Assembly: GCA_001887945.1 (NCBI GenBank)
Contig: LDOQ01000005.1
Coordinates: 62,001 to 126,000 of the forward strand
Direction: 5' to 3'
Length of the DNA stretch: 64,000 nt
Source: Spraguea lophii
Lineage: Eukaryota; Microsporidia; Spragueidae
A model generated the notes under the pieces. That model was given only the letters and a program-made list of their open reading frames with translations. It was not told the DNA's origin and searched no databases. Shown here in pieces: positions 8,401 through 64,000 of this stretch; within the stretch, counting starts at the first letter, position 1, and every line of letters begins with the position of its first letter. Both the position numbers and the translations under genes were made by a program.

Positions 8401-8750
8401 TTTTTATTTTATTTTTAATGAAACTTTTATTTATAGAAGTTTCTTGACGATTATAGCTCACCGTATTATATGACCCTTGATTCCTGAAGCCCATTTTAAA
8501 GTTATACCAACTCGTTTTTATGTATATATGTATTAATCTCATCTTACTTTATGATCTGGAACGTTAAACTTTCACGTGTGATGTAATCATCATCCTCACC
8601 TTCTTATATAATCCTGTTTTCGTTCTTGGCATAATATTAGCCAAACCATCAACCAATACGGGGACTGTGATTGTAATAGTTAAATACCACATTTATTTAG
8701 TATTGTAACCGTGATACAAGGTATAGTTAATGCTATATTATCGAATTTTC
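8401..8750 (-). mobile_element. SINE-like retroposon, 5'-truncated copy
   Basis: This matches the 3' two-thirds of the element at 20750-21250. It starts with the A-rich tail and the AATGAAACTTTTATTTAT motif at the low-coordinate end and runs through the internal TTAATCTCATCTTAC block to the GCTATATTATCGAA segment, where homology stops. The tRNA-like head with A and B boxes is missing. This 5' truncation is expected when LINE machinery copies an RNA incompletely. No target-site duplication was recognised. Confidence 0.7.
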
Positions 8751-9058: not shown

Positions 9059-10513
9059 ATGATTATTTTATACATTTTCTTTCCATTATTTTTAACTAGT
9101 ATTGACCATAAATCTAATATTGAAGAAGGATTAAATGTAGAAATAGATAGTAATGCAAAAATAATAGATTTAAAAAATAAAAAGATAAAAAAACTACCTA
9201 ATAAATTAAAAACCTGTTCTGAAGTCAAAATTTTGGATTTAGAAGAAAATCGTTTAACTAATGAATGCTTCGATATAATTATGGAATTAAAGCAATTAAA
9301 AAGACTTACTCTCGTTGATAATATGATAAATAAGATACCCTATACATTTTGTTATATGAATGACTTAAGTTTCTTGGATTTAGGATATAATTGTTTTAAA
9401 AAAATACCAAAATCATTTAAAACTATGAATATAAAATTCTTAAAACTTGATGGTATTTCTCGTAATTCAAGAGATAAAGAAATTTCATATTCTGAAAAAA
9501 TAGATATTTTGAAGATTGTATTTAGTATGAAAAATCTTATTACTTTATCTTTTAGAAACAATAGAACAGGTAATATTGAAATGGATTTAAATATTAATAA
9601 TAATGTCAGAAATTTAGATTTAAGAAATAATAATATTTCCGAAGTACCAAGTTTTATATTAAATTTTAAAAGGTTAAAATATATTGATCTAACCAACAAC
9701 AAGATTATGACAATAATACCATTAAATTCTTTAAAAGAATTAAAACATGTTAGGATAGAAGATAATATTATATCTAATATTTTACCAGGTACATTTCATT
9801 CTTTAGAAGAATTAAGAATTTCACTAGCACCCGAAACATCATTTCCATTATTAAATATAAATAAAAAACAGGCATTAAAAACTTTAAAAGTAGTAAAAAC
9901 TGAAATATTACCAGAATTTGCCCAAGAAATATTTAAAGTCCACACAATCCAATCTCTTACTCTATCCAGTTGTGAATATGGAAATATGATGAAAGGAATA
10001 GAACAAATGACAGATTTACAAAAACTGGAAATTTACTGGAAAAATGAAAAAATATTCTCATCAACTTTCTCATGCCTAGAAAATCTCCAATCATTATCTA
10101 TTTTTTCTTTAAAACCTTATTATGATATTAAACCCTCTTTTTATGATAACCTAAAAAATATCACAACCCTAAAAAATCTAGAAATCGACTTACAATCTTC
10201 CAGCTACTTACGTATCCCACCAATATTTAATATTATTGGATTAGAAAGATTAATCATAGCAGGATATAAGATCGACGATCTAAAAGATTTTTTAAAATTA
10301 AAAAACTTAAAATACTTGGAAATTAGAAAAATCAAGATTACCACCATTACAAAAGAAGATATTATAAATTTATATAAAATTGATACCACATATTTATTAC
10401 TTATTTCAAATGAGAAAATAGAAGGGAATATAAAAGAAGAAATAAGAAAAAGAAGAGAAACGGATGGATTAAAAGAGAAAAATAAAATGGTAGTTATTAT
10501 ATCAAAATATTAA
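9059..10513 (+). CDS. Secreted leucine-rich repeat protein
   Basis: A 484-residue protein. Residues 1-14 (MIILYIFFPLFLTS) form a short hydrophobic N-terminus that reads as a cleavable signal peptide, so the protein is probably secreted or surface-exposed. From about residue 30 there are leucine-rich repeats of roughly 23 residues, recognisable by L-D-L-x-x-N-x-(I/L) cores such as KILDLEENRL, FLDLGYN and NLDLRNNNI. They become more degenerate towards the basic C-terminus. LRR domains bind proteins, and secreted LRR families occur in several microsporidia, where they are suspected host-interface factors; no partner can be inferred here. The start lacks the CCC motif seen before most conserved genes. 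The gene stands alone among mobile-element relics. Being intact in such a place argues for selection on it. Confidence 0.75.
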   Translation: MIILYIFFPLFLTSIDHKSNIEEGLNVEIDSNAKIIDLKNKKIKKLPNKLKTCSEVKILDLEENRLTNECFDIIMELKQLKRLTLVDNMINKIPYTFCYMNDLSFLDLGYNCFKKIPKSFKTMNIKFLKLDGISRNSRDKEISYSEKIDILKIVFSMKNLITLSFRNNRTGNIEMDLNINNNVRNLDLRNNNISEVPSFILNFKRLKYIDLTNNKIMTIIPLNSLKELKHVRIEDNIISNILPGTFHSLEELRISLAPETSFPLLNINKKQALKTLKVVKTEILPEFAQEIFKVHTIQSLTLSSCEYGNMMKGIEQMTDLQKLEIYWKNEKIFSSTFSCLENLQSLSIFSLKPYYDIKPSFYDNLKNITTLKNLEIDLQSSSYLRIPPIFNIIGLERLIIAGYKIDDLKDFLKLKNLKYLEIRKIKITTITKEDIINLYKIDTTYLLLISNEKIEGNIKEEIRKRRETDGLKEKNKMVVIISKY

Positions 10514-10980: not shown

Positions 10981-11394
10981 TTTTTCTTTTTTTAATGAAG
11001 TTTTTATTTATCAAAGTTTCTTGACGATTGTAACCTACCGTGTTTTATGATCTTTGCTTCCTGAGCATATTTAACTTGTAATAACAGGTTTTGTTATAGA
11101 TATACATTGCCTTATCTTATCTTATGATCTAGGGTGTTGCGATTTTGCGTATGATCCACATCTCTATCACCCAGTATTCAAATTATATTAATTAAATATT
11201 ACTTTAATTTAGTAATGACCCGTCATACATAATATAGACAATACTACACTATAGAAGTCTATCTACTCAACTACCTTTTTCTTCTTCTTCTCTTTTACTT
11301 TTATTTTTTTTGAAATTTTTCTGGATAAGATATTTGGATTCACTAAACTTAGGGTTTGATTACCACACCATGGTCATTCGGTTAAACGGCCCTT
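10981..11394 (-). mobile_element. SINE-like retroposon, nearly full-length decayed copy
   Basis: Collinear with the element at 20750-21250: tail and AATGAAGTTTTTATTTATC at the low end, the TTGCG(A/T)TTTTGCGTATG block in the middle, the pyrimidine tract (CTTCTTCTTCTC) near 11280, and a tRNA-like head near 11325-11394 with a damaged B box. There is an internal deletion around 11160-11200. Most differences from the intact copy are C to T or G to A. Confidence 0.7.
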
Positions 11395-16875: not shown

Positions 16876-17357
16876 TTTTTTTTTATTAATGAAACTTTTA
16901 TTTATTAAAGTTTCCTGGTCGGTTGCGGCCTACCATGGCCTGTGACCTTCGGTTCCTCAAACGAATCTAAGCTTGTACTAACTGGTTTCGCTACAGATGT
17001 GCATTAATCTCATATTACCTTATGCACCAGGATGTTAGGATTTTGCGTCAGGTGCACGTCGCCGCCTCCGCCTAACCTTTAAGGAATTCCCGACTCTCTC
17101 GTTGTATAATATTGGTCGAGTCACAAATCAATACAAGAATTGCAATTACATCAGCTAAACACTACTTTAATCTAGTAATGGAGCGTCATGCGAGACACCG
17201 ATAATGCTACATTATCGAACCCTCCCCCATTCAACACTTTTTTTCTCTTCCTTCTACTTATTATTTCTTTTTTTTTGAAAATTTTTCTGGATGAGGGATT
17301 CGAACCCGCCAGGCTTGGGGTCTGGACCACCCCACTACCACTGGGCCAACGGGTCCG
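16876..17357 (-). mobile_element. SINE-like retroposon, full-length copy
   Basis: About 480 bp on the minus strand, aligning end to end with 20750-21250. The tRNA-like head lies at the high end. On the minus strand it has a perfect polymerase III A box TGGCCCAGTGG (17338-17348) and B box GGTTCGAATCC (17296-17306). The tRNA-unrelated body follows, then the 3' end GAAACTTTTATTTAT (plus-strand reading) and an A-rich tail (plus-strand T run 16876-16884). Its base composition is far more GC-rich than its surroundings. Flanking target-site duplications were not recognised, so it may be older than the copy at 20.7 kb. No protein is encoded; open frames over it are fortuitous. Confidence 0.85.
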
Positions 17358-18258: not shown

Positions 18259-19188
18259 ATGGCGGTGAACAATGATCAATCTAATGATAATACGAATAAA
18301 CAACAAAACATTAGAAATAAACTGAAAGAACCTTCCTTATTTGAGGCTGTTGAGGTTGTTAGTCTTTTTTTGGATTCTTTGTTGTTTCTACATTGTAAAA
18401 CAGGTTATTCACCACCAAGGTTTAATCATATGAAATGTATGGAGCTGTATGCAATAAAAATCTTTATAAAAACACTAAGGGCAAACATGAGAAGCGTGCA
18501 TTATTATGAAAATACCAAATGTATGTTTGTTAGACTTGTTTATATTATAAGGTCGGGGAATATACATGAGATATGCAATTGTTTATACAATAGTCCAAAA
18601 TTCATGGAAAATGTGCGGTTTTTTATGGGCGGCAGCTATAATATGATGAATCTAATTAATTTTATGACAAGATTGAGAGGAATTGAAAAAAACATAAGGT
18701 ATAATCAAAATACTAATCAATTTAATGAAGATGATATAATTTCAAAAGGTACATATGATATTAATAAGTTTGTTGACGAAAAACAAAATTCTCATGAAAT
18801 AAATATAAGCGGTGGTCGTTATTTAAATAGCTATGATAATAATAATTCAATTTATGAGAATATTCAAAATTTATTATTTTCACATGCTGGTAAACGTGGC
18901 AATGCCCCACATCCAACAAAAGAAATCTTTTCGAATCCAGTTGAGAATTATAGTTCAAAATGTATTAAAAAGTCTATACATGAAATTCGTGGACGGAATA
19001 ATAGCCAATTAAAGAGCACAATTGCGAATGTTAAAAAAACATCATACAAGAAAAGGAAGAAAAGAGAATGTTTTCTTTGTGGGGCAAAGAAATCTCCGGC
19101 TTGGCGAATTCTAGAAAACAAACAAGTTTGTAATGCGTGTGGATTATACTATAAGGGTAAGAACAAAAATAATAGAGGCTTTAGATAA
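18259..19188 (+). CDS. GATA-type zinc-finger transcription factor
   Basis: A 309-residue protein. The C-terminal 39 residues carry one GATA finger: C271-x2-C274, a 16-residue loop containing PAW, then C-N-A-C-G-L-Y, followed by a basic K/R/N tail. The classical spacing is 17-18 between the cysteine pairs, so this finger is one residue short. The N-terminal 130 residues are hydrophobic and Cys/Met-containing without a known domain; the middle is Asn/Ser-rich and probably disordered. GATA factors are nuclear DNA-binding regulators that recognise (A/T)GATA(A/G); the targets here are unknown. No CCC motif precedes the ATG; a GGGGG run does. The gene lies between two SINE copies about 4 kb apart on the minus strand. 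Confidence 0.85.
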   Translation: MAVNNDQSNDNTNKQQNIRNKLKEPSLFEAVEVVSLFLDSLLFLHCKTGYSPPRFNHMKCMELYAIKIFIKTLRANMRSVHYYENTKCMFVRLVYIIRSGNIHEICNCLYNSPKFMENVRFFMGGSYNMMNLINFMTRLRGIEKNIRYNQNTNQFNEDDIISKGTYDINKFVDEKQNSHEINISGGRYLNSYDNNNSIYENIQNLLFSHAGKRGNAPHPTKEIFSNPVENYSSKCIKKSIHEIRGRNNSQLKSTIANVKKTSYKKRKKRECFLCGAKKSPAWRILENKQVCNACGLYYKGKNKNNRGFR

Positions 19189-20749
19189 TATATTCAAAAA
19201 TTATCAAATATTAATTAAGTAAAAATTTTAAATAAACGATTTTTTACCCTATGTTCGAAGAAAAATAATTAGAAAACTCGTAAACAAAACTTATTAAACC
19301 TCAAAAAACGATAAAATCTTATTGCATATAATAAAGTAAATGCATATCGATAAAAATATATTGTGTGCACCGATCGAATTAGATCATTATATTTCGACTG
19401 TCTTTGAATACTTAATAGTATTTTAACAAAAGTAATATATTCGAAAAATAAACATTAGTCAATGGTATTTAAAACAAAAAACCAAACAGTTAATGGGTTT
19501 CTGTCACAAAAACAACAATCTTATTTTTAACTTTGATTCTTTTCTTGGATATCAAGTTTTTATCTTTTAGGTATGAATACAAATGCTCAAAATGCGTTTA
19601 TAACAAATTAAAATTATAGCATATTCATAAAAATCTAATTCCATCGACCTGGTTATATAACAAATCGTAATATAGTTTTTCAATATATATACAAATATTT
19701 TATAGTTATTTTGCATATAATAAACATATTTTGATCAAATCATTCATATTATTTATATTTTCTAATCGATTTCATAATTTTAACTATATAATTCATGGAA
19801 TTTATTTTTGAAATCATAATGGATCTTTTATATTCCTAGCGCCGTTATCTTTTTGGATGGGTACGTTATATTTCAACGACATTAAATAGTCGGTATTGTA
19901 TATTCCATATTTCTGCATTTTGCATGTTTTAAACAGTAAGCGTAATCGTTTGGTTCCTATTTAACATCAGATATGATAGAGAATTGGCATAACAATCTAA
20001 GGTATTATAATTTGTTCAAATATGGTAAGTCTTTTATTTTGTCAAAAATATATTAATAAATTACAGTGTTTATAAATTCTCAAAGTATTTCTCATGTTAA
20101 ATTTTCTTTATGAATTCTATTATTCCTTCCTTTTTATCATAATTTATCTTGTCCCATTATATTGATTTTTTTATATAAAAATAGAAAAATATATATTGCT
20201 TTAGTTCTACACATATACAATTTAATTTTATTCCTGTAAATTTAATTACGTTATCATTTTTCTTGTCACTAATTGATTTTTTTTCTAAATACGTCTAATT
20301 AGTTACAAATACGAATCATGTTAAAATGACAACTAATTAAATAATGTATTATCTATTATAATTCTTCTTTGTGATGATAAATACGTATAATTTCAAAATA
20401 TTTATGAAAAAAAGAAGGAATAAATGAACAACTGTTTAAAAAAACAGAAAATTATAATATAATTCTTCTTTTCTGACAAAAAGTAAGATGTTACATTTAT
20501 TTCTATTGGCATTAATGGATATTTTCCACATCATAAGATGATAAAATCTTTTGCTCTTATTAGAGGTTGATGACTAATTATTATTTGTCCCAACGGTTAA
20601 AAAAATAAATTTTAAGGTAAAATTACATAACCATTTTTAATTATAAAAAATATTTATTTATTAAAAGTTTTATGTTCATTAAATACATGGTATTTTAATT
20701 CATTATTTATAAGTTACAGGTTTTTATTTAATTTGAAATTTCTTCATTT
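19189..20749. other. Intergenic DNA, no gene seen
   Basis: About 1.5 kb downstream of the GATA gene. It is AT-rich throughout. No RNA gene, repeat copy or convincing open frame was found apart from the left copy of the target-site duplication at its right end (20734-20749). Confidence 0.4.
20734..20749. repeat. Target-site duplication, left copy
   Basis: TGAAATTTCTTCATTT, identical over 16 bases to 21251-21266 at the other end of the SINE. The left copy abuts the A-rich tail and the right copy abuts the tRNA-like head. This is the hallmark of target-primed reverse transcription. Confidence 0.9.
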
Positions 20750-21250
20750 TTTTTTTACGAATGAAACTTTTATTTATCAAAGCTTCCTGGCCGGTTGCGG
20801 CCTACCATGGTCTGTGACCTTCGGTTCCTCGAGCGACATTAAACTTGTACTAACTGGTTTCGCTACAGATATGCATTAATCTCATCTTACCTTATGCTCC
20901 AGAGTGTTAGGATTTTGCGTATGGTGCGCGTCGCCGCCCCCACTTCCAGCTCTTAAGGAATTCCCAGCCTCTTTCGTTGCATAGTATTGGCCGAGTCACT
21001 AATCAATACAGGGATTGCAACTACATCAGCTAAACACTACTTTAATCTAGTAGCGGGGCCGTCATACAAAGCACAGCTATGCTGTGCTATCGAAACCTCA
21101 CCCACTCAACAACCTTTTTTCTTCTCTTCTGCATTTATTATTATTTTATCTTATTTTTTTTTGTTTTGAAAACTTTTTCTGGATGAGGGATTCGAACCCG
21201 CCAGGCTTGGGGTTTGGTTACCACCCCACGACCACTGGGCCAGGCGGGAC
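20750..21250 (-). mobile_element. tRNA-derived SINE-like retroposon, complete, with 16-bp target-site duplication
   Basis: The best-preserved copy. On the minus strand it starts at 21250 with a tRNA-like head. This has an A box TGGCCCAGTGG (21233-21243) and a B box GGTTCGAATCC (plus-strand reading near 21189-21199). A pyrimidine/purine-asymmetric stretch follows, then a unique body with the CCGGTTGCGGCC segment (plus strand near 20790), and it ends in an A-rich tail at 20750-20757. A perfect 16-bp direct repeat flanks it. The A and B boxes would let polymerase III transcribe it from within. It encodes no protein and would need a LINE reverse transcriptase in trans; none is visible in this window. 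The parental tRNA could not be identified. It is inserted into one arm of an inverted repeat. Confidence 0.92.
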
Positions 21251-21266
21251 TGAAATTTCTTCATTT
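21251..21266. repeat. Target-site duplication, right copy
   Basis: TGAAATTTCTTCATTT, identical to 20734-20749, directly next to the tRNA-like head of the SINE. Confidence 0.9.
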
Positions 21267-22310: not shown

Positions 22311-23096
22311 TTATTCAATATTTTCATTAATTTTATCTTTGTCTTGTTCCAATTCTTCTTTCAGTTTATCTTCTAACACTCTTATTGCATCTAAATTCAT
22401 ATTTTCCCATTCACACATTGTACACACAAGCTGTTGGTGAAAAGCTAAGAACATTTTGGAAAATTCTGATATAACACCTTTAGCTATAATAGATCCTCCC
22501 CATATATTAGAATTTATTTCTACAAGTTTATAACAATACATCATTGGTAAATTTTTCTCTTTCTGTTTTTCAATCCACTTTTCATTCATAGGACATACCA
22601 TATGATTTACTATGGCTATTCTAGTGTCATATTCTTCATCTACAGGACTAGAACTTACATCTAAAATTACTTTTTTTACTTTCTTATATTCCTCTTCTTC
22701 AATTCCAAAAACATTTTCTTGTTGTTCATATCCATTTAAATGTGTTGACGTAATTGAAACATTAAATTTCTCTGGTTTAAATTGTTGGTTTGTGTATGTT
22801 GTTACACAATTTGGAAATGCATTGTATGCAATTTCTTCTATTAAAAGTGCTTTCTTGGGAACTAAAGCTTTGATTATAGATGGTACCTTTTTAGATATAT
22901 TTAGTAGTTTTTTAGTTTTCCTGCATTCCCCATACTTTTCATGGCTGATATCATAATTTTCTAAAATTTGGATAGGTGATCCTTTTTTAGCTTCTGCCTG
23001 ACTCATATGTGCTACTGTGTATAGTTGTCCTACCAAATATTTATCTATGTGAAATGGTAAAGGAATTCTAAATTCTACTCTTTTTGTTGTTGCCAT
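22311..23096 (-). CDS. Phosphatidylinositol transfer protein (PITP, class I-like)
   Basis: A 261-residue protein matching the length of the soluble START-like PITP family (about 270). It shows VGQLYTVAHMSQAE near residues 26-39 (family YxxGQLYxVAxMSxxE), NAFPNCVTTYTN (family NAYPYCRTVxTN), YKLVEINSNIWG (family YKLVxVxFxxWG) and CTMCEWENMNLDAIR near the C-terminus (family C.DEW..LTMEDIR). These proteins exchange phosphatidylinositol and phosphatidylcholine between membranes and support phosphoinositide signalling and traffic. For a parasite that takes lipids from its host, such a carrier would be useful, but that is inference. CCC directly precedes the ATG on the minus strand. The C-terminus is a charged K/E/D helix. 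Confidence 0.88.
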   Translation of the reverse strand: MATTKRVEFRIPLPFHIDKYLVGQLYTVAHMSQAEAKKGSPIQILENYDISHEKYGECRKTKKLLNISKKVPSIIKALVPKKALLIEEIAYNAFPNCVTTYTNQQFKPEKFNVSITSTHLNGYEQQENVFGIEEEEYKKVKKVILDVSSSPVDEEYDTRIAIVNHMVCPMNEKWIEKQKEKNLPMMYCYKLVEINSNIWGGSIIAKGVISEFSKMFLAFHQQLVCTMCEWENMNLDAIRVLEDKLKEELEQDKDKINENIE

Positions 23097-23365: not shown

Positions 23366-23832
23366 ACCCGTTTGGCTTGGCGATTAGGGGGTGGTAACCA
23401 CATCACAAGCCTAGCGGATTTGAATTCTCCACCAGAAATAATTTTCAAAAAAAAATAAAAGTTAGAAGAGAAGAAAAGAAAGGAAAGGATGTTGAGTGGA
23501 TGGGAGTCAATAGCATAGCTTTGGCTATTCTTTGTATGCTGGACATGTTATTAGATTAAAGTAATATTTCCAGGTACAATTGTAATTCTTGTATTGATTT
23601 GTGGCTCAAGCAGTAATAAGCCAAGAAAAAATCTCATTAAAAATTATAGAATGATGATTACATTATATTCTGAATCCTCATGCACAGAAATATAATATAT
23701 GATGGGATTAATACATATCTATGGCAATAACTGGTTAGTATAAGTTTAAGTGTACCAGAATCAAAGGTCATAGACCACGATAGGTTGTAACTAACAAGAC
23801 AATTTCTATAAATAAAAGTTTTATTAAAAAAA
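23366..23832 (+). mobile_element. SINE-like retroposon, plus-strand copy
   Basis: This is the family member in the opposite orientation. The head begins near CCCGTTTGGCTTGGCGA (23367), with GGGGGTGGTAACCACA as in the complete copy and a decayed B box GGATTTGAATTCTCC (23416-23430). The purine-rich tract lies near 23460-23500. The 3' end is ATAAATAAAAGTTTTATT followed by an A run (23826-23832). The A box is damaged. No clear target-site duplication; ATTCCATTATAAG (23340) and ATTCCTTTATTAG (23848) are only weakly similar. Confidence 0.75.
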
Positions 23833-47589: not shown

Positions 47590-49968
47590 ATGAAACATCC
47601 ACTAATCACGATCTTCGGCCCACCACAATCTGGTAAAAGTTCTCTACTGTCTGCAATTGTAAAACAAAATATAAAAACTGAATATGCTATTTCGTGTTTG
47701 TTCAATAATTTTAAATTTACTATCAATGCTATAAAAAGTTATGATAATCAATATATGTTATATCAAATGATCGATAGTAGTAAGATATCTGATATACATA
47801 TACTTACTATTGATGGTAATATAGGTGTAGAGGTGGATACATTGGAGTATATATCTTTAATACAAGCACATTCTAATACAAATATTGTTGTAGTGATAAC
47901 AAAAAGTGATAAAAGAAGGAAGGAGATAAAAGAGGTCGTTGAGAAATATGTGGGAAAGGTTAAGATATTTGTTTATATAAAGAAAATACATTCAAGAGAA
48001 ATGGAAAATGGGGATAGGTGTGAGAATTATTCAAAATATAGTAATTCAATAAGTAATTTGATGAGATATTTAAGTAATGTGAAAATCATAGAGACTAGTT
48101 TAAATAGAATACCGCATATTATGGTGGATAGGATAATAGATAATAAAGTATATGGGTATTTGAGAGGTGGTGTCGTTCAGAAAGAACAATCTGTTGTTGT
48201 TAGTAATAATGTAAAATCTTCATATAATATTTTTAAAACAAAAATACAGAGAATAAAAGATCCTTTGGAGAAGAGTAGGAAAAAATTGGAGAATAAGTAT
48301 AAAGTTTATATTCCTGGTGGTGATGTAGATGATGGAATATATATTCCTATTAAAAAAAAAGAAGTGAGTGAAAAAAATAATTATGAAGAGAATTTACATA
48401 GTGTCGTAGAACAAATGAAGAAGAAAATCGAAGAGGAGGAAAAAAATAAAGAATTGAAAATAGAAAAAAAGAATAAGGAGTTATTTTTATTCGATAATGT
48501 GGCGTTTAAGAATGAAAAAAAAATTTATGAAGAACAAGAAGAAATCGTGGAAGAAAAGAAGGAAGATGTAAAAGAAGAGATTGAAGATAAAATAGAAATG
48601 GAAGATAATTTTGATGTTTTAAAAGAAAAGATGAAAATGAAGATAAAAAATATAAAATATTCTGATAGTGAAGAAGAATATTCTGATAAAGAAAATAGTA
48701 ATGAAGAGAATGATATTGAAGAAAGTGAAAAAGAATGTTCTGATATAGAAAATAATAACGAAGAAAATAATACAGAAGAAAAGAAAAAAGAAATTAATAA
48801 TAATTTTTACAAACCAGGAGAATACTTGGAAATAGAAATATCAGAATGGTTGAAACATTCTAAATTTTTATTTCTATTCTTCGTTAACGAATCCAATACA
48901 AAAGATAAAGAAAAAAATAAACCTGTTTTACTCAGTGGTAAAATTACTAAGCATAAATTTTACAAAGGTTACGTAGAAAGTAATGATGCATATATTGTAT
49001 CTTTAGGTTTATACAAATATCAGACTACTCCTCTTTTTTATAATTATGATGGTGTAAGAAATAGAGTTGTAAAAATATTACCGGAATTAGATTATGTTGG
49101 AATATCTCTTTACGCTCCTCTTGTAGATCCATCTACACCATTATCTCTTATCAGACCAAATTCTTCGTTTAAAATCTGTGCATACGGTAGTATAAATGGA
49201 AGTTCTGTAAAACTTCAAAAACCATTACGATTAATAGGAAGCGTATTTAAAATTCATCATAATTCTGCAGAAATAAATAATATGTTTTCTTCTGATATAG
49301 AGGTTATAAGAGCTAGAAATGTTAAAATCCAAACAGCTAGTGGTATTAGAGGAATTATAAAAAATCCAGTAGGTAAGGGTGGTGCGTTTAGAGCAACATT
49401 TGAAGGACCAGTGACTAAAAGTGATATAATAATATTAAAAACATACGTAGAAAATAAACCATATGATATTTATAAAGAAGTAACAGATAAAATATTACGA
49501 AGTAGAAAAGAGATATTTGAAATTCAAGATAAATATAAATCACACGAAGAACAGAATGAAAATGAAGATGATAATATAATATACAATAAAAATAATACAA
49601 CAAATAATAAAATAGATACAGATAATAAGACAGATATAGATAATAAGACAAATATAAATGATATAAAAATAAAACCTAAGAAAGAATATAAAAATAAAAT
49701 ATTAATGAAATACGATAAAAAGATAGAAATCTTAGAAAAGAAGTTAACCTTAGATAAAAGAAAAATAGAAAAAGAAAGATTATTACCTTCTTTTTTAGAT
49801 GAAGATAATAATACCACAGAAATAAATACCGTAGAAAATAATTTATTAACAAATAATAGAATAAATAAAATTACAACAGAAAAATCCTATGAAAAAATAA
49901 AAAAGAAAGGAATAATAAAAACAATAAAAAATAAAAAACATAAATCAAAGAAGAAATATAAAATTTAG
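47590..49968 (+). CDS. BMS1: Ribosome biogenesis GTPase BMS1
   Basis: A 792-residue protein against about 1180 in yeast. The G domain begins at once: FGPPQSGKSSL (P-loop, about residues 9-19), TIDGNIGVEVDTLEY (family DGNYGFEMET(M/L)EF), VVITKSD (G4). SLNRIPHIMVDRI (family R..HPYLL.DR) marks the next domain. Residues about 290-400 form an acidic Lys/Glu/Asp linker. The C-terminal domain (about 415-640) holds SLGLYKYQTTPLFYNYD, PLSLIRPNSSFKICAYG, LIGSVFKIHHNSAEINNMF, VKIQTASGIRGIIKNPVG, AFRATFEG. This order is specific to BMS1 rather than TSR1. The protein acts in the nucleolar small-subunit processome with Rcl1 and U3. The usual N-terminal extension is absent and the tail is Lys-rich. Convergent with Nup155 (36 bases). 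Confidence 0.93.
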   Translation: MKHPLITIFGPPQSGKSSLLSAIVKQNIKTEYAISCLFNNFKFTINAIKSYDNQYMLYQMIDSSKISDIHILTIDGNIGVEVDTLEYISLIQAHSNTNIVVVITKSDKRRKEIKEVVEKYVGKVKIFVYIKKIHSREMENGDRCENYSKYSNSISNLMRYLSNVKIIETSLNRIPHIMVDRIIDNKVYGYLRGGVVQKEQSVVVSNNVKSSYNIFKTKIQRIKDPLEKSRKKLENKYKVYIPGGDVDDGIYIPIKKKEVSEKNNYEENLHSVVEQMKKKIEEEEKNKELKIEKKNKELFLFDNVAFKNEKKIYEEQEEIVEEKKEDVKEEIEDKIEMEDNFDVLKEKMKMKIKNIKYSDSEEEYSDKENSNEENDIEESEKECSDIENNNEENNTEEKKKEINNNFYKPGEYLEIEISEWLKHSKFLFLFFVNESNTKDKEKNKPVLLSGKITKHKFYKGYVESNDAYIVSLGLYKYQTTPLFYNYDGVRNRVVKILPELDYVGISLYAPLVDPSTPLSLIRPNSSFKICAYGSINGSSVKLQKPLRLIGSVFKIHHNSAEINNMFSSDIEVIRARNVKIQTASGIRGIIKNPVGKGGAFRATFEGPVTKSDIIILKTYVENKPYDIYKEVTDKILRSRKEIFEIQDKYKSHEEQNENEDDNIIYNKNNTTNNKIDTDNKTDIDNKTNINDIKIKPKKEYKNKILMKYDKKIEILEKKLTLDKRKIEKERLLPSFLDEDNNTTEINTVENNLLTNNRINKITTEKSYEKIKKKGIIKTIKNKKHKSKKKYKI

Positions 49969-62128: not shown

Positions 62129-64000
62129 TCATAAAATTGAACACATACGATTAAATAAGCGTCTTCTGCCTTGATGCAATCGACTTATTCTAGAAGATGG
62201 TTTCTTATAAAGATATCCCATCCACTTTAAAAGTAAATGTGTACCCTCATTTTCCAATTGTATATATCCATTCGGATCAGTATCATCCTGAATAAATTCG
62301 AATAGATCATTCATTCGAATATCTTCATTATAAATAGAAGTAACATATTCTCCTAACAGGTTGTATAACTTGAAACCGGATTCTTTATCTCTCAAGAATT
62401 TGTTAATTTCAGCTCTTATTGTTTGATAAGTAAACCTATTAAAAAATTCTCTAGCTATATATTTTTTATCATGAAGTTCTTGTACAATCGACATATTCCC
62501 ATATAAATTTATTTCTTTCTGAAATCCAAGTTCCTCAGATAATTTATTTTTCCAGTTCAAAAATACTTCTATTTCTTCTATTTCTCCTCGGCCTGTTGTA
62601 ATAGCTTTAAGTATGTCAATCTTAAAGTTTGCAATTATTTCCATTATTATATGTTCAGCATTACTACAGTCATTTCCTAATTTTAATCTCATATACGCTT
62701 CTATAACTGCTTCACATTGTCCATCTAAACATGGAACATCATCATTTGTAGTATAGGAATTAAATTTTAATCCATGTAAAAGTCTAACAAGCGTGTCATC
62801 TATAAAATCTTTTCTTTCTGGTAACATCTTAAACATTATCATAACAATCGATTCTAAATAATTAATAATAGATTTTCTTTTTTGAACATCGATAGAAGAT
62901 GTATTTTCATGAAAAGCGATATCCTCATATAAATAGTATACATCTATTCTTCTCATCAAAAAGGCTAATTTTTCTTCTTCTTTATAAGGTTTTACTTCTT
63001 GGAAAATACCATATAACATGGATTTAATCTGGTTTTTTGTTTTCGTGTGTTTCTTTGGTTTAAATGGGATACACAATTTTATTATATCTAAATTCAATCG
63101 TTCGTTAATAGGTATATCAAGATTTTGATAAAACATTTTAATATTTAAATCAAGATTGATGTCGTCAGGAACTATGAGTTCGGGTAATATTACATCGCTA
63201 TTATATCTGATATTTCTTAAAAGATCGGGATGTACTTGGTCAATAGTAATTAATTCGGGATTTTGAATGTCTGTATTTATTTGTCGAAGTAAAGGATTTT
63301 GAAATAAATCAATTGAAACATTTCTATTACTAATATTATTTATCCCAGCAGGAAGTAATTCTATATCATTTTTATATAACATTAGATTTCGAAGCGTTGG
63401 GATATCAAATATATTCTTATCAATATTAACTATTTGGTTATGAGATAACTCTAATAATTCTAAAGAACTATTTGTTCCAAAAACATTTTTGAGTTCGACT
63501 ATTCGATTATTATTTGCTATAAAAACTGTTAAATTGGTTAACTTAAATATAGTATTGGGGATGTTAGCCAAATAGCAGTTAGATAAATTTAAATACTTAA
63601 TTTTTGAAATAGCCGACGCATTCTCAAATATATCAATACTACCATCAAACCGTTCTGAACATCTAATAATTAATTTTTCTATATTATTATAATAGAAAAT
63701 ATTTGCCAATACACTTATATTTTTAAGCTCTAAATTAAGATAACTTGGTCCACTTCTTGTATGATGATATTTCTCAATTTCTGTGAGTACATTATTAAAT
63801 ATAATGAGATATTTTAACTGTTTTAATTTTAAAATATTATTATCAAGTTTATAAAGTCTATTGACGGATAAATCAAGAGATACCAAACTTTGTAACGCAT
63901 TATCAGAAATTGAACATTGCTGTATTTTGTTATTTCGAATACACAATTCTAACATATTATTAAATATGCTATTATCAATATTTATTATTTTAATACGGTT
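62129..64000 (-). CDS. Leucine-rich repeat protein, 5' end beyond the window
   Basis: The minus-strand frame stays open from the stop at 62129 to the right edge, so the gene is cut by the window. The first internal ATG is at 63955, but 15 more codons upstream are open and themselves read like an LRR (N-x-I-x-x-I-N-I-D-N-S-I-F). At least 620 residues are visible. The first 250 or so are leucine-rich repeats with L-x-x-L-x-L-S-x-N-x-I cores, for example SLDLSVNRL, YLNLSNC and LLELSHNQI. The remaining 350 are helical, without a recognised domain, and contain HENTSSIDVQKRKSI and a basic C-terminus (SRISRLHQGRRRLFNR). Any signal peptide would lie outside the window. It probably belongs to a lineage-specific LRR family; it is only loosely similar to the 9.1-kb LRR protein. 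Confidence 0.78.
   Translation of the reverse strand, partial: NRIKIINIDNSIFNNMLELCIRNNKIQQCSISDNALQSLVSLDLSVNRLYKLDNNILKLKQLKYLIIFNNVLTEIEKYHHTRSGPSYLNLELKNISVLANIFYYNNIEKLIIRCSERFDGSIDIFENASAISKIKYLNLSNCYLANIPNTIFKLTNLTVFIANNNRIVELKNVFGTNSSLELLELSHNQIVNIDKNIFDIPTLRNLMLYKNDIELLPAGINNISNRNVSIDLFQNPLLRQINTDIQNPELITIDQVHPDLLRNIRYNSDVILPELIVPDDINLDLNIKMFYQNLDIPINERLNLDIIKLCIPFKPKKHTKTKNQIKSMLYGIFQEVKPYKEEEKLAFLMRRIDVYYLYEDIAFHENTSSIDVQKRKSIINYLESIVMIMFKMLPERKDFIDDTLVRLLHGLKFNSYTTNDDVPCLDGQCEAVIEAYMRLKLGNDCSNAEHIIMEIIANFKIDILKAITTGRGEIEEIEVFLNWKNKLSEELGFQKEINLYGNMSIVQELHDKKYIAREFFNRFTYQTIRAEINKFLRDKESGFKLYNLLGEYVTSIYNEDIRMNDLFEFIQDDTDPNGYIQLENEGTHLLLKWMGYLYKKPSSRISRLHQGRRRLFNRMCSIL

Follow-up and report, generated by a model that had tools for sequence, protein, structure and literature searches.

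SINEs that derive from tRNAs and match the 3' end of a LINE are known from vertebrates, and ascomycete fungi also have SINEs, for example Foxy of Fusarium. The element described here is of the same kind as Foxy but belongs to another phylum, and the two are likened by kind, not by sequence. With the tRNA-derived SINEs of vertebrates it shares a tRNA-like head with boxes, an unrelated body, a 3' region in common with a LINE, an A-rich tail and flanking duplications. It differs from them in being a new sequence family, in having a shared 3' region that lacks a LINE stretch of about 105 bases, and in its head, for which no cloverleaf is predicted.

Spraguea lophii is a microsporidian that infects goosefish (PMC3749934, PMC4948709). 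LINEs are known from the genomes of Trachipleistophora hominis and Spraguea (PMC3486916, PMC3749934, PMC4202319), and four non-LTR retrotransposons are reported among S. lophii transcripts (PMC3749934). In a literature search with supplements, subscription papers and repeat databases outside its scope, we found no SINE family described in any microsporidian, in agreement with an earlier note on this DNA, whose author knew of no well-described one. The word “SINE” is absent from the main texts of PMC3749934, PMC4948709 and PMC4202319 (as a word start) and of PMC3486916 (as a whole word). A repeat table for Nosema bombycis has a “SINE” line (28,669 bp, 0.18% of the genome; PMC3614468); it likewise places the SINE class in a microsporidian, but it is a line in a table, with no family, structure or copies given there. 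One article in which “SINEs” and Microsporidia occur together (PMC10790688) was set aside, since the SINE it mentions is a mosquito element used as a primer target. The family reported here is new as a sequence in the Microsporidia, while the kind of element is well known.

Our starting point is a single stretch of 64,000 nucleotides, hereafter the window. Over the residues searched, the protein encoded at 47590-49968 shows 100% identity to SLOPH_1728 of Spraguea lophii 42_110. This places the window in S. lophii or a very close relative and bears out the earlier description of the genome as microsporidian-like; the Rfam model of microsporidian small-subunit rRNA gave no match to the assembly among the best 5 of 45 candidates. 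We conclude that the window very probably holds a member of a tRNA-headed SINE family of Spraguea, with dispersed copies, duplications of about 14 bp, A tails and a LINE-related 3' region, whose transcription and mobilisation we infer.

The SINE copy in the window and its tRNA-like head

A perfect 16-bp direct repeat lies at 20734-20749 and 21251-21266, and the 501 bp in between (20750-21250, minus strand) are a full-length SINE copy. Its sense is that of the minus strand, so that it runs from 21250, where the 5' end opens with GTCCCGCC, to 20750, where the 3' end closes in TAAAAAAA. The repeat, which reads AAATGAAGAAATTTCA in element sense, is the target-site duplication; its copy at 20734-20749 stands beside the 3' (A-tail) end and its copy at 21251-21266 beside the 5' (tRNA-like) end. 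The earlier note had described just this arrangement, 501 bp within a perfect 16-bp repeat with an A-rich tail by one repeat and A and B boxes by the other, and all of these parts lie where it placed them. On one side of the SINE there is a GATA-finger frame (18259-19188) and on the other a phosphatidylinositol transfer protein gene (22311-23096), whose product returned only itself in a search. Elsewhere in the window, leucine-rich repeat proteins are found at 9059-10513 and 62129-63955; this family is reported to be expanded in S. lophii (PMC3749934).

Several parts can be told apart along the element, all on the minus strand. The tRNA-like head (element positions 1-78; 21173-21250) is followed directly by a run of four T (21169-21172) and is joined to the body by an A-rich linker (21114-21179, limits approximate), whose matches to LINE pieces are weak and of low complexity only. 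The body (20873-21113) matched none of the LINE pieces compared at E 0.01 and no Rfam family at gathering score. Next, at element positions 379-473 (20778-20872), comes the segment shared with the resident LINE, where it lies in the 3' untranslated region. The last 29 bases ahead of the tail (20757-20785) resemble the last bases of the LINE before its own A tail, and the SINE ends in an A tail (20750-20756).

The head contains an A box, TGGCCCAGTGG (21232-21242), and a B box, GGTTCGAATCC (21188-21198). Among the 41 full copies of the young set defined below, the A-box pattern occurs in all 41 and the B-box pattern in 38, and in all 38 the boxes are 33 bases apart, a tRNA-like spacing. We compared the head with 41 of the 57 tRNA genes found in the assembly (40 fetched genes and the tRNA-Thr of the window). 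The best alignment was to tRNA-Arg(TCG) (local score 43; maximum of 200 shuffles, 26), followed by a tRNA-Leu (score 40 versus 35 in shuffles). Because such boxes are common to all tRNAs, tRNA-Arg(TCG) is only suggested as the source of the head. A permissive Rfam scan gave only three matches, all below threshold, namely mir-127 and twice tmRNA, one of the latter over the B box. The tRNA-like head of the earlier note thus stands as to its boxes, their spacing and its alignment to the tRNAs of the same genome, from which the label derives, but not as to a tRNA call, which was made neither by ARAGORN nor by the Rfam tRNA model at gathering score, nor as to a predicted cloverleaf.

The T run after the head could stop polymerase III transcripts early, acting as a weak terminator, and this counts against the SINE reading. 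One T4 run is present in 34 of the 41 full copies, two T4 runs in 1 and a T5 run in 1, while 5 have none; the first run begins at element positions 76-83 in 36 of the 41. After 21 tRNA genes, the first T run of four or more was T5 or longer in 18 cases and T4 in 3, which makes polymerase III read-through of the T4 in the SINE plausible but unproven.

The resident LINE and the shared 3' region

A scan of the assembly for reverse transcriptase gave nine places. The start of contig C72 carries a LINE-like frame with endonuclease and reverse transcriptase similarity below Pfam cut-offs: it matched no Pfam family at E 0.001, and when E was relaxed to 1 its only matches were to RVT_1 and two endonuclease families, below their curated cut-offs. 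None of the LINE copies seen was intact; the one on C72 is cut by the contig end, and its endonuclease part falls into two frames. A decayed copy (L073) has the reverse transcriptase region of C72 at 75% identity over 256 bases together with a 3' end like that of locus L072 at 81% over 62 bases. Four other loci hold frames of the LTR type. L031 has protease and reverse transcriptase domains (Pfam), and L032, L033 and L036 look similar by eye; some of these four frames are open and some are broken. In addition, L035 and L038 (C2:66528-67271) show an asparagine-rich frame of 1239 amino acids with weak reverse transcriptase similarity in two stretches, which is possibly a telomerase, although this is a guess.

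The 3' region of L072 matches SINE positions 379-473 at 73% over 97 bases (E=3e-13). A search with this region found at least 14 LINE 3' ends, with SINE copies ranking below them (best 40 of 106 candidates scored), and these 14 together with L073 make up the 15 LINE ends that we examined. Nine of the 15 (L136-L142, L072, L003) match the SINE 3' region at 73-87% over 55-109 bases, and six show the shared segment poorly or not. Among these six, L147 has a weak match (71% over 48 bases), L143 and L073 have no match to the SINE 3' region, and in L144, L145 and L146 the truncation goes past the shared segment; L144 has a match to the last 28 bases of the SINE (82%, E 0.008), and the match of L145 is the old SINE in which that LINE end sits. 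Past the shared segment the LINE carries about 105 further bases that are absent from the SINE, and it then ends in ...CATAAATAAAATTTTCTTATG followed by A's, compared with GATAAATAAAAGTTTCATTCG at the end of the SINE. When these last 29 bases were compared, 0-5 of 2000 shuffles and 1-19 of 2000 random 29-mers from the window did as well as or better than the true match in 5 of 12 LINE ends; in the other 7, 26-635 shuffles and 60-776 window 29-mers did so. The truncated LINE ends L138, L140, L144, L145 and L146 are flanked, by eye, by duplications of roughly 9-16 bp. A short TTAGG-like repeat is also visible by eye near position 3070 of L072.

These comparisons make the resident LINE the likely partner of the SINE. 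Polymerase III would transcribe the SINE from its A and B boxes, and the LINE protein would bind the 3' end of the SINE RNA that is common to both elements. It would then nick the chromosome, and reverse transcription would be primed on the A tail, that is, by target-primed reverse transcription. It could also be argued that the SINE family is real but driven by another LINE, and that the 3' segment it has in common with the resident LINE was acquired long ago. Agreement over the last 29 bases is only moderate, some 105 bases of the LINE 3' region are missing from the SINE, and inspection of L072 (positions 1-680) by eye shows, beside the SINE-related 3' end, a second LINE-like one of a different type and with a different tail. 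However, duplication lengths and A tails are alike in the SINE and the resident LINE, and the shared segment lies near the 3' end in both; we regard another driving LINE as unlikely, though worth keeping in mind.

Copies, age and independent insertion

The assembly comprises 5,273,041 bases (5.27 Mb) in 73 contigs. A search with the 501 bases found at least 43 matches, of which at least 40, including the window copy itself, are near full length at 96-100% identity (best 40 of 451 candidates scored). With up to 3 mismatches allowed, 25-base patterns were found at 108 places for the head, 179 for the middle and 175 for the tail, and reversed controls at 0 places each. Exact SINE pieces of 26 and 27 bases gave 0 matches each to viral contigs. 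The copies are thus many, dispersed and similar, each well under 1 kb, and their tails consist of TAAA and then A's, at times interrupted by T.

From the fetched loci we compiled a table of 75 distinct matches, some of which are pieces of one copy cut by the end of a locus; 42 span both ends of the element, and 17 keep the tail without the 5' end. Our young set consists of the 50 copies with more than 90% identity, an intact tail and both flanks (41 full, 9 truncated at the 5' end), all other matches being dropped. The nine truncated copies begin at element positions 13, 97, 106, 121, 148, 334, 358, 437 and 466. These late starts, and the lower number of heads than of tails, fit 5' truncation.

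The 41 full copies lie 0.2-6.1% from their consensus (median 1.4%), and groups of copies have diagnostic changes in common. The window contains five further stretches of the family, all more diverged than the 501-bp copy. They are an older copy with 86% identity to the young consensus (16878-17348, minus strand), an older copy in two pieces with 71% and 76% (10987-11370, minus), two old copies with 67% (23388-23832, plus) and 66% (8417-8745, minus), and a 38-bp fragment of the 3' region with 82% in a weak alignment, E about 2e-4 (35302-35339, minus). The changes in the four older copies are mostly from G/C to A/T. Taken together, full copies at 0.2-6.1% and window copies down to 66% indicate that SINE activity is old and continued until recently, and the activity in this lineage that the earlier note had proposed agrees with the many copies and with the youngest at 0.2% from the consensus. 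At one locus (L015/L061, C10:73468-74442) a young SINE lies between pieces of an older SINE copy.

This range of ages also bears on whether the copies might be processed pseudogenes derived from a small RNA gene of the cell, and not a SINE that has its own source copies. Such pseudogenes would equally have tRNA-like boxes, A tails and duplications, and the body is of no recognised origin. Yet that body belongs to no Rfam family at gathering score, the 3' region resembles that of a LINE, and the diagnostic changes by group, with copies from young to old, fit long-lived source elements. We consider a pseudogene family very improbable.

For target-site duplications, we counted exact repeats of at least 8 bp and, as a control, paired each 5' flank with the 3' flank of another copy. 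An exact duplication is present in 39 of the 50 young copies (median 14 bp, range 8-17 bp; 32 of the 41 full copies and 7 of the 9 truncated ones), whereas only 55 of 2450 mispaired flanks reach 8 bp or more, 43 of these 55 being 8 bp long, so the duplications are not due to chance. Even the shortest copy, with element positions 466-501, lies between two copies of TCAATAAATTTTTTGG. The copies occupy different sites with different duplications and end at the same bases. Apart from AT-richness, no clear target-site motif was found across copies; that A is almost never found immediately before the duplication is a consequence of the method.

Eleven of the 50 copies were without a duplication in the scripted search. 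One has a spacer, the duplication being present behind two extra bases (L006). In another, the second copy of L013, AACCAGCT is seen by eye on both sides, the tail anchor of the script having missed it. Five are without a cause found, and four form two inverted pairs. In the first pair (L014, C1:142809-144272) the 5' flank of one copy equals the 3' flank of the other over 15 and 10 bp, and in the second (L028, C45:92443-93685) the exchanged flanks match over 13 and 15 bp; matches over 10-13 bp also occur in six other pairs of unrelated flanks in the same table. The two inverted pairs may have arisen by recombination between SINE copies that caused inversions, or may be assembly errors in orientation.

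We also compared the 300-bp flanks of the 41 full copies (82 flanks). Most are unrelated; 14 of the 3321 possible pairs are similar, two of which are neighbouring copies and three of which involve older SINE remains. Apart from those 14 pairs there is little to suggest that the 501 bp belong permanently to some larger transposon or segmental duplication and have not moved by themselves. The independent duplications refute this almost negligible alternative, as copies with mostly unrelated flanks share their end points and 39 of 50 have a duplication of their own. The assembly search for further copies with flanking repeats, which the earlier note had proposed, thus yielded at least 40 near-full-length places and 39 duplicated copies among the 50 young ones. 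These are further, independently duplicated copies that do not all lie inside one larger transposon, and the SINE reading survived the test set for it in advance. It is supported by the copies, their independent duplications, the A tail and the boxes, with mobilisation by a LINE as the probable route.

Origin and meaning for Spraguea

The GC content of the LINE and the SINE is 44-45%, compared with 22% in the window and 30% in the one LTR-type locus measured. It is tempting to hypothesize that the Spraguea lineage acquired both at once from an animal host, through horizontal transfer, and that they kept their high GC; if so, a transferred LINE-SINE pair would still be multiplying in a parasite. 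We find this doubtful. Copies with identities down to 66% point to long residence, and a published tree groups the non-LTR elements of Trachipleistophora and Nosema (PMC3486916), which likewise speaks against a transfer.

The positions of the three patterns (head, middle and tail) put at least 14 contig ends inside SINE copies: the starts of C3, C15, C19, C25, C35, C36, C46, C47, C48, C54, C56, C58 and C60 and the end of C9. In six of these starts the SINE tail is at the same offset within a base, and at the end of C9 (L060), read directly, the SINE is cut at element position 378. SINE copies thus help to account for breaks in the assembly.

Microsporidia are models of genome reduction. Yet in the small genome of Spraguea (5.27 Mb assembled) a non-coding element has multiplied, apparently in dependence on another mobile element. 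Populations of Spraguea differ by about 3% at silent sites (PMC4948709). If the SINE changes at the silent-site rate, which we assume, its youngest insertions should be specific to populations. The SINE would supply dated insertion markers for Spraguea populations, between which the young copies should be polymorphic.
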